NCBI GenBank assembly: GCA_012520595.1
Contig: JAAYNZ010000141.1
Span: forward strand, 1 to 52,690
From: Candidatus Epulonipiscium sp.
GTDB lineage: Bacteria; Bacillota; Clostridia; Lachnospirales; JAAYNZ01
Direction: 5' to 3'
Length of the DNA: 52,690 bases
Numbering within the stretch: position 1 is the first letter of the stretch; each line of letters opens with the position of its first letter. Of the stretch, positions 50,276 to 52,578 are shown in pieces. A program made the translations under genes and the position numbers. The notes under the pieces were generated by a model. That model was not told the DNA's origin and made no database searches. It was given only the letters and a program-made list of their open reading frames with translations.

Positions 50276-50304
50276 TTGATTTTTTAAAATAACTATTATA
50301 TAAT
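50276..50304 (+). promoter_or_regulatory. Promoter of the lacI operon
   Basis: TTGATT (50276-50281), a 17-base spacer and a perfect TATAAT (50299-50304). Both hexamers match those of the uxaB promoter. Confidence 0.75.
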
Positions 50305-50308
50305 AAAA

Positions 50309-50324
50309 ATGTAATCCATTACAT
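50309..50324. promoter_or_regulatory. LacI-type operator 1
   Basis: ATGTAA-TCCA-TTACAT is a perfect 6+4+6 palindrome starting 5 bases after the -10 box, over the transcription start. The probable ligand is the adjacent LacI-family repressor. It also resembles a cre with one centre mismatch. Confidence 0.65.
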
Positions 50325-50343: not shown

Positions 50344-50365
50344 AAAATGTAATCCGTTACATTTT
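50344..50365. promoter_or_regulatory. LacI-type operator 2
   Basis: AAAATGTAA-TCCG-TTACATTTT is a palindrome with 9-base arms. Its centre is 38 bases from that of operator 1, so two dimers could bind cooperatively in the leader. Confidence 0.65.
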
Positions 50366-50448
50366 CACTGTAATAATCAGATCTTTTATTTATTTTACCA
50401 ATTAAGTATTCATCGAACAATACTTGAACGAAAGAGGAGGGATGAAAA

Positions 50449-51447
50449 ATAAAAATTCAAGATGTAGCCAAAGAAGCAGGTGTTTCTGTAGCAACCGTAT
50501 CAAGGGTACTAAATGATCATCCTTCTGTAGCACCACAGACTCGAGAAAAAGTTCAACGAGCTATTGGGAAATTAGGATACGAACCGAATCTTTTAGGAAG
50601 AAATTTACGTCGATCAGAGACTAAAATGATTTTAGTACTTCTTCAAAGTTTATCCAATCCTTTTTATTCAAAGGTGGTACAGGGAATGGAAGATATAGGA
50701 CATCAACACGGATATAATGTTATGATTTGTAATACAGATTTAGATGTTAAAAGAGAAAAAGAATATTTGGATTTACTTAGAAATAAGTTGGTTGATGGAG
50801 TTATTTTTGCTGCTCCCACTTTGAGTAAAGAGGAATTATCTAGCATTGCAAAACAATACCCTATTGTGCAATGTTGTGAATATAAGGAAGAAGCCAATGT
50901 TTCGAAGGTTTCTATTGATAATATAAAAGCAGGTTATTGTGCTACACGTCATCTTATTGAATTAGGACATCAAAAGATTGGTATGATTAGTGGAAAAAAC
51001 CAGCTGCTTTCTGCTCAAGATCGAGAAAAGGGATATAAGATGGCTTTGCAAGAGGCAGGAATTTCTTTACAAGAAAATTGGATTCAATATGAAAGTTATG
51101 GTTTTCATGGAGGATTTCGAGGCACCCAAGCTCTTTTAAAATTAGATCCCAAACCTACGGCTATTTTTGCTATTTCTGATATTATGGCCATTGGTGCCAT
51201 GAAGGCTTTAAAAGAAGCGAAAATTTCGATCCCGGATAAAATGGCAGTTGTTGGGTTTGATAATACGGGGATTTCAGCTATGTATGATCCAGCGTTGACC
51301 ACTATTGCTCAACCTAGGTATCAGTTAGGTGCTACAGCCATGGCTTTGTTGATTCAAAAGATTCGTAATAAAGAAAGTAAGGTTGAGAACAAAATATTAC
51401 CTCACGAATTGATTGTTCGTGATTCAACGACTGATTTAAGTAAGTAG
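50449..51447 (+). CDS. LacI-family transcriptional repressor with an apparent AUA start
   Basis: This 332-residue LacI/GalR regulator has an N-terminal helix-turn-helix (IQDVAKEAGVSVATVSRVLN) and hinge, then a periplasmic-binding-protein-like sensor (VLLQSLSNPFYSKVVQGMEDIG ... AIFAISDIMAIGAMKALKEA ... DKMAVVGFDN). No ATG, GTG or TTG begins this frame before the domain; an in-frame TGA lies at 50443. ATA at 50449 is exactly where the family's Met falls (M-K-I-Q-D-V-A) and is 8 bases after AGGAGG (50435-50440). ATG at 50442 is out of frame and only 1 base from that site. It may be a rare start, a mutation or a sequencing error. It probably represses its own operon. Confidence 0.85.
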   Translation: MKIQDVAKEAGVSVATVSRVLNDHPSVAPQTREKVQRAIGKLGYEPNLLGRNLRRSETKMILVLLQSLSNPFYSKVVQGMEDIGHQHGYNVMICNTDLDVKREKEYLDLLRNKLVDGVIFAAPTLSKEELSSIAKQYPIVQCCEYKEEANVSKVSIDNIKAGYCATRHLIELGHQKIGMISGKNQLLSAQDREKGYKMALQEAGISLQENWIQYESYGFHGGFRGTQALLKLDPKPTAIFAISDIMAIGAMKALKEAKISIPDKMAVVGFDNTGISAMYDPALTTIAQPRYQLGATAMALLIQKIRNKESKVENKILPHELIVRDSTTDLSK

Positions 51448-51495: not shown

Positions 51496-52578
51496 ATGGA
51501 AAAAGAAGTAAGGATAGGAATTATTGGATGTGGAGGTATCGCAAATTCAAAACATATGCCTAGTTTGGCTAAGATTAAAAATGTGAAAATGGTGGCTTTC
51601 TGCGATATTGTAGAAGAAAGAGCACAAAAAGCAGTAAAAGAATTTGGAACTCCTGATGCAAAAGCATATAAAGATTATCATGAACTATTAAAGGATTCTT
51701 CTATTGATGTAATTCATGTTTGTACTCCTAATAAGTCTCATGCAGATATTACTATCGCAGCTTTAGAAGCGGATAAACATGTGATGTGTGAAAAACCAAT
51801 GGCGAAAACAGCACAGGATGCAAGGAGAATGTTGGAGGCAGCAAAACGAACGGGAAAAAAATTAACCATAGGATATCAAAATCGTTTTCGAAATGATTCG
51901 CAGTATTTATACCAAGCATGTCGGCGTAATGATTTAGGAGAGATTTATTTTGCGAAAGCTCATGCTCTGCGACGTCGTGCTGTTCCTACTTGGGGTGTCT
52001 TTTTAAATGAAGAGGAGCAAGGAGGAGGTCCTTTGATCGACATAGGAACTCATGCATTGGATCTAACATTATGGATGATGGATAATTATAAACCAAAAAC
52101 AGTTATGGGTACGGTTTACCATAAATTAGGGGACCAAAAAAATACAGCTAATGCCTGGGGGGATTGGGATCCTGAAAAGTTTACGGTGGAGGACTCAGCT
52201 TTTGGTTTTATTACAATGGAAAATGGGGCAACTATTATTTTAGAATCCAGCTGGGCTTTAAATACATTGGATATAGGAGAAGGAAAAACCACTCTTTGCG
52301 GAACAAAGGCAGGAGCAGATATGAAGGATGGACTTCGTATTAATGGAGTGGAATTTAATAGAATGTATGTAAAAAAACCAGAATTAAAAGCAGGCGGTGT
52401 TGATTTTTATGATGGGCAATCAGAATCTCCATCAGATAAAGAAGCTCGGATGTGGATTGAGTCCATTATCAATGATACAGACCCTGTAGTAAAGCCAGAA
52501 GAAGCTCTTGTGGTTACAGAAATTTTGGAAGCCATTTATCAATCAGCAAAAACTGGAAAACCAGTTGAATTAGTATAA
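51496..52578 (+). CDS. Gfo/Idh/MocA-family sugar dehydrogenase
   Basis: This 360-residue NAD(P)-dependent oxidoreductase acts on a sugar or cyclitol. The N-terminal Rossmann fold has GIIGCGGIANSKHMPSL, and the family motif CEKPMAKTAQDARRM supplies the catalytic Lys. The C-terminal alpha/beta domain includes GGGPLIDIGTHALDLTLWMM with the conserved Asp and His. AAGGAGG precedes the ATG. It is cotranscribed with lacI and the next gene. The substrate is not evident; the shared upstream module hints at a link to uronate or pectin sugars. Confidence 0.88.
   Translation: MEKEVRIGIIGCGGIANSKHMPSLAKIKNVKMVAFCDIVEERAQKAVKEFGTPDAKAYKDYHELLKDSSIDVIHVCTPNKSHADITIAALEADKHVMCEKPMAKTAQDARRMLEAAKRTGKKLTIGYQNRFRNDSQYLYQACRRNDLGEIYFAKAHALRRRAVPTWGVFLNEEEQGGGPLIDIGTHALDLTLWMMDNYKPKTVMGTVYHKLGDQKNTANAWGDWDPEKFTVEDSAFGFITMENGATIILESSWALNTLDIGEGKTTLCGTKAGADMKDGLRINGVEFNRMYVKKPELKAGGVDFYDGQSESPSDKEARMWIESIINDTDPVVKPEEALVVTEILEAIYQSAKTGKPVELV

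Follow-up and report, generated by a model that had tools for sequence, protein, structure and literature searches.

The window analysed here, a stretch of 52,690 nucleotides of Candidatus Epulonipiscium sp., carries a gene for a LacI-family transcriptional repressor whose conserved beginning is preceded by a strong Shine-Dalgarno (SD) sequence and by no ATG, GTG or TTG in its own frame, raising the question of which codon starts its translation. A preliminary description of this DNA had proposed an AUA start, AUA being inefficient and very rarely used for initiation. The comparison with a second species of the genus supports this proposal, since ATA, SD and spacing are common to the two orthologues and neither has an upstream canonical codon. 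Thus, we infer with good support that initiation occurs at AUA, and the most convincing account of the locus, which we consider probable, is that of a self-repressing LacI-family regulator, in charge of a small regulon for sugar or polyol catabolism and translated from this AUA, the poor codon lowering repressor synthesis.

The start region and the encoded protein

Re-reading of the sequence gave exactly the coordinates described for the AGGAGG, the 8-base gap and the ATA (Table 1). The LacI frame from 50449 begins, as had been stated, with ATA AAA ATT CAA GAT GTA GCC, and the codon preceding ATA is AAA. An upstream start is blocked by the in-frame TGA, and the next in-frame ATG, GTG, TTG or CTG is the ATG at 50626, located past the DNA-binding domain; both points had been made in the preliminary description. 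The same is true for the ATG at 50442-50444, which belongs to another frame, lies 1 base from the SD and opens an ORF of 24 codons encoding MKNKNSRCSQRSRCFCSNRIKGTK followed by a stop.

Table 1. Features of the LacI-family locus and of the predicted regulon; positions refer to the window unless a contig is given.
Feature	Position	Strand	Remarks
-35 element TTGATT, probable lacI operon promoter	50276..50281	+	consensus match only; TTGATT kept in relative
-10 element TATAAT	50299..50304	+	17 bases from -35; TATAAT-like box in relative's alignment (ATATAATAAAAATGTAA)
Predicted operator 1, ATGTAAT-CC-ATTACAT	50309..50324	+	7-base arms; overlaps expected transcription start
Predicted operator 2, ATGTAA-TCCG-TTACAT	50347..50362	+	palindrome, 6-base arms; 5' leader
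Shine-Dalgarno AGGAGG	50435..50440	+	8 bases before ATA; AGGAGGGAT identical in relative, equal spacing
Out-of-frame ATG with 24-codon ORF, probably not used	50442..50516	+	1 base from SD; ATA in relative, so not conserved
In-frame TGA	50443..50445	+	shuts LacI frame upstream of ATA; sequence reading
Probable AUA start codon	50449..50451	+	ATA also in same-genus orthologue; outgroups canonical
LacI-family transcriptional repressor gene	50449..51447	+	332 codons and stop
Gfo/Idh/MocA oxidoreductase, next gene of probable operon	51496..52578	+	ATG start, own AAGGAGG
Predicted operator 3	L221 9908-9923 (G000:C65); L148 2570-2585 (G001:C1)		pattern search

A Pfam profile search indicates that a full LacI-family protein is encoded from this frame: the LacI HTH domain (PF00356) spans residues 2-47, covering positions 1-46 of the 46-position profile with an E-value of 6.9e-20, and is followed by a C-terminal periplasmic-binding-protein-like sugar domain, matched by PF00532 (E 1.2e-42) and PF13377. 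None of the curated NCBIfam cut-offs for the named LacI subfamilies CytR, RbsR, PurR and CcpA was reached, the best scores being 293 for CytR (cut-off 436), 279 for RbsR (382) and 258 for CcpA (442).

Conservation of the probable start in a second species of the genus

An orthologue with 79% protein identity and 76% DNA identity is found in the one other species of the same genus available for comparison, in a Candidatus Epulonipiscium sp. metagenome assembly (JAAYSE010000028.1, G001:C103); conservation at the genus level is therefore a single comparison between two fragmented draft assemblies. From AGGAGGGAT onward the two sequences are colinear and the start regions align without indels; that of the relative reads AAAGGAGGGATATATA-ATA-AAG-ATT-CAG-GAT, with ATA at the matching place and the SD and its spacing unchanged. 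A canonical start at the same place in a relative had been named as evidence against AUA; the orthologue has none there and retains ATA, and no ATG, GTG or TTG occurs anywhere between this codon and the stop that closes the frame upstream.

The beginning of the gene is under strong purifying selection. Between the two species, codons 2-20 show a pS of 0.573 and a pN of 0.036, and codons 2-60 a pS of 0.579 and a pN of 0.096. A synonymous difference of 57% against a nonsynonymous one of about 4% in codons 2-20 indicates that both lineages translate the N-terminal DNA-binding domain, and initiation must consequently lie at the ATA or in its immediate vicinity. This non-AUG codon has been kept in both available species despite the synonymous divergence of about 57%; a shared isoleucine codon is by itself weak evidence, and the weight rests on the missing canonical start.

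A start at or near the ATA also leaves room for a different non-canonical codon, which would lengthen or shorten the protein by one or two residues: either the ATT at codon 3, which is kept in both species, represents a known type of start codon and has a counterpart in the infC gene of the genus, which seems to start at ATT, or a further ATA, which in the relative occupies codon -1, 5 bases from the SD. However, the ATT lies 14 bases from the AGGAGG, beyond the usual range, and the earlier ATA is missing from the window, where codon -1 is AAA; such a shifted start is thus unlikely, and the ATA at normal SD spacing appears the best candidate, the ATT being far from the SD and the earlier ATA present in the relative only.

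Somewhat less probable still is an error of sequencing or assembly, consisting of an extra base in the A-run or a misread start codon, with the true start at ATG 50442 or at another canonical codon. Indeed, an A-run one base shorter would bring ATG 50442 in frame, and the genome of the window is a fragmented assembly of 230 contigs. However, the relative, a separate assembly of a separate species, is colinear and has neither the A-run nor an ATG at the place of ATG 50442, where it carries ATA, and it too is devoid of a canonical start; the same site would have to have been hit by error twice, independently. The search of the relative for an A-run error, which the preliminary description had named as a possible refutation, thus revealed no A-run, no ATG and no indel, and an A-run error was rejected: a canonical start absent from two species, together with an ATA common to them, is not explicable by an error in a single assembly.

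It is very improbable that the gene is a decaying pseudogene with a lost start, or that only a 273-aa core protein is made from ATG 50626, as would follow from mechanical ORF calling, which yields this ORF as its sole product; the selection acting on codons 2-60 despite heavy synonymous change argues against this, as does the retention by both species of the SD, the predicted operators and the operon, and the pseudogene was rejected on the former ground. Hardly credible, finally, is a start at ATG 50442 followed by a +1 shift into the LacI frame on the A-rich stretch ATG AAA AAT AAA AAT, which is out of frame by one, since the SD is just 1 base away from this ATG; the relative, which has ATA in its place and no A-run, offers no such route, and the frameshift was rejected on this latter ground.

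Outgroup orthologues, paralogues and start codon usage

More distant orthologues, with 42-56% identity, start at ATG (12 of the 14 that were parsed) or GTG (the other two), their N-termini reading MPTIQ, MVTIQ, MATIQ, MYTIQ, MSTIK, VATIK and similar; in 13 cases the start precedes the ATA position by one codon, and in one (L259) it coincides with it. As these orthologues use ATG or GTG, the AUA start represents an innovation at the level of the genus. Parsing succeeded for six LacI paralogues of the same genome, all of them with a canonical start, ATG or GTG.

A census of start codons covered 874 kb of the 2.5 Mb genome, which gave 702 ORFs with a length of 110 aa or more, and 315 kb of the relative. 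Canonical starts preceded by an SD amounted to 673 (545 ATG, 72 TTG and 56 GTG), and the LacI gene is the only convincing case of an ATA behind a strong SD with no canonical SD-preceded start nearby, the next one lying 79 codons downstream. The other ATA, ATT, ATC or CTG codons found behind a strong SD nearly all have a canonical start directly after them, and those left over are unconvincing as gene starts. Among 168 conserved ORFs compared with the relative, the LacI gene is also the sole clear case in which, in each of the two species, coding conservation begins far ahead of the earliest canonical codon; three further entries were judged to be leader, antisense or non-coding stretches. A genome-wide loosening of start choice was rejected on the basis of the 673 SD-preceded canonical starts and of the lack of a second comparable ATA case in this sample. 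On these sequence comparisons, the AUA start is specific to the LacI gene and to the genus.

Promoter, operators and operon

Two palindromes, ATGTAATCCATTACAT and ATGTAATCCGTTACAT, follow the probable promoter and are predicted operators. A pattern search located the operator core TGTAAYSSRTTACA in three places in each of the two genomes, while the reversed control pattern gave none; in both species the third site lies just before the SD of a second gene for a Gfo/Idh/MocA oxidoreductase, which would probably constitute the rest of the regulon. Two predicted sites are also present upstream of the relative's orthologue and of many outgroup orthologues, TGTAAnnnnTTACA-type operators preceding 11 of 14 outgroup genes. 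Autoregulation is supported by these two putative operators, which lie between the promoter and the gene and which both species and most outgroups retain.

Just upstream of the SD, the window (50402-50427) can form a leader hairpin of 9 base pairs, which has no equivalent in the relative, and shuffled sequences fold equally well; no conserved leader structure around the SD was detected by folding, with z-scores of -0.09 and -0.36.

The order repressor-oxidoreductase is also found in the relative and in outgroup L015, and in the relative the oxidoreductase is followed by a further gene that, by eye, resembles a sugar isomerase/epimerase. Judging from these surroundings, the protein is most probably a local repressor that regulates its own operon and acts in a sugar or polyol pathway. 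A plasmid search returned weak matches only, to the oxidoreductase gene.

Possible role of the AUA start and comparison with known systems

In the proposed mechanism, the AGGAGG eight bases upstream would direct initiation to the AUA, which the ordinary initiator tRNA would read despite mispairing at the third base of the codon; the strong SD would make this mismatch tolerable. The poor codon would cut repressor synthesis several-fold with respect to AUG. Output of the operon's leading gene would then be low, and the oxidoreductase, provided with its own SD and ATG, would be translated normally; by analogy, the shared mRNA may yield only a fraction as much repressor as downstream enzyme. Low translation and self-repression through the two palindromic operators would together lead to a scarce repressor and an easily induced operon. 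The weak AUA start as a brake that keeps an autoregulated repressor scarce is plausible; its regulatory purpose, the size of the reduction and the benefit are inferred. Alternatively, the ancestor of the genus may have fixed a poor but still workable start by drift.

The closest precedent is CcpN, a repressor whose AUA start, conserved between S. aureus and B. subtilis, has been located by Ribo-Ret and assayed in reporter constructs (PMC13009471). Reporters in S. aureus show about 10% of AUG expression from AUA and AUU starts, and up to 30% from the ccpN AUA in rich medium (PMC13009471). CcpN resembles the LacI repressor in being a Bacillota transcriptional repressor that acts on carbon metabolism and has a conserved AUA behind a strong SD, its expression being about 10-30% of that from AUG; however, it does not belong to the LacI family and its start was mapped experimentally, whereas the AUA start described here is supported by sequence comparison, in an uncultured bacterium and within one genus. 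Given this published and measured precedent, the AUA-started LacI repressor is not the first of its kind: AUA-started repressors were already known, and what is new is the LacI family, the lineage and the gene-specific occurrence. LacI would be, beside CcpN, a second protein family with an AUA-started repressor, suggesting that poor starts recur as a means of keeping autorepressors scarce.

A more tentative extension, less likely than not, is that the change from an ancestral ATG to AUA adds a translational control, the repressor level becoming sensitive to IF3 and to the supply of initiator tRNA and of its formylation, and the induction of the sugar operon being thereby tied to nutrition; a sensitivity to nutritional state is hinted at by the rise of CcpN AUA initiation in rich medium.

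Other genes share some of these features. The infC gene, encoding IF3, likewise combines a poor AUN start with a strong SD and a low or regulated synthesis, and in S. aureus it starts at AUA (PMC13009471); it differs in that IF3 discriminates against its own start codon, whereas the LacI repressor would lack such a direct loop, its feedback acting at transcription. E. coli pcnB has an AUU start (Binns and Masters 2002, as cited in PMC13009471) and, according to that citation, is similar in that an inefficient start codon limits the protein amount, while codon and function are different and the product is not a repressor. Local regulators of the LacI/GalR type share the domain order, the palindromic TGTAAnnnnTTACA operators and the autoregulated operon with a Gfo/Idh/MocA gene, and differ in the canonical start of all the parsed outgroup orthologues.

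Ordinary gene calling misses AUA starts; in the present case it would lead to the annotation of a 273-aa repressor without DNA-binding domain and, in the relative, to a TTG start that halves this domain.

Genetic code, initiator tRNA and infC

A genome-wide reassignment of AUA to methionine was rejected: residues aligned to ATA codons are Ile (30%), Val (19%), Leu (12%) and Met in only 3%, and the Met share is the same for ATT and ATC. A changed initiator tRNA, with a UAU anticodon, was not found among the 22 tRNA matches recovered from the window-genome assembly, rated 100% complete, nor was any initiator tRNA gene; both tRNA-Met copies recovered from this assembly (G000) look like the elongator type.

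The AUU start of infC is a known, classic type. In both species of the genus infC seems to start at ATT, in the context GGAGGTGTGCAGTT ATT AGC GAT TTA ATG (L145, about 1475-1500 of G000:C48; L143, about 1475-1500 of G001:C186), and ATT AGC GAT sits behind GGAGGTG in both.
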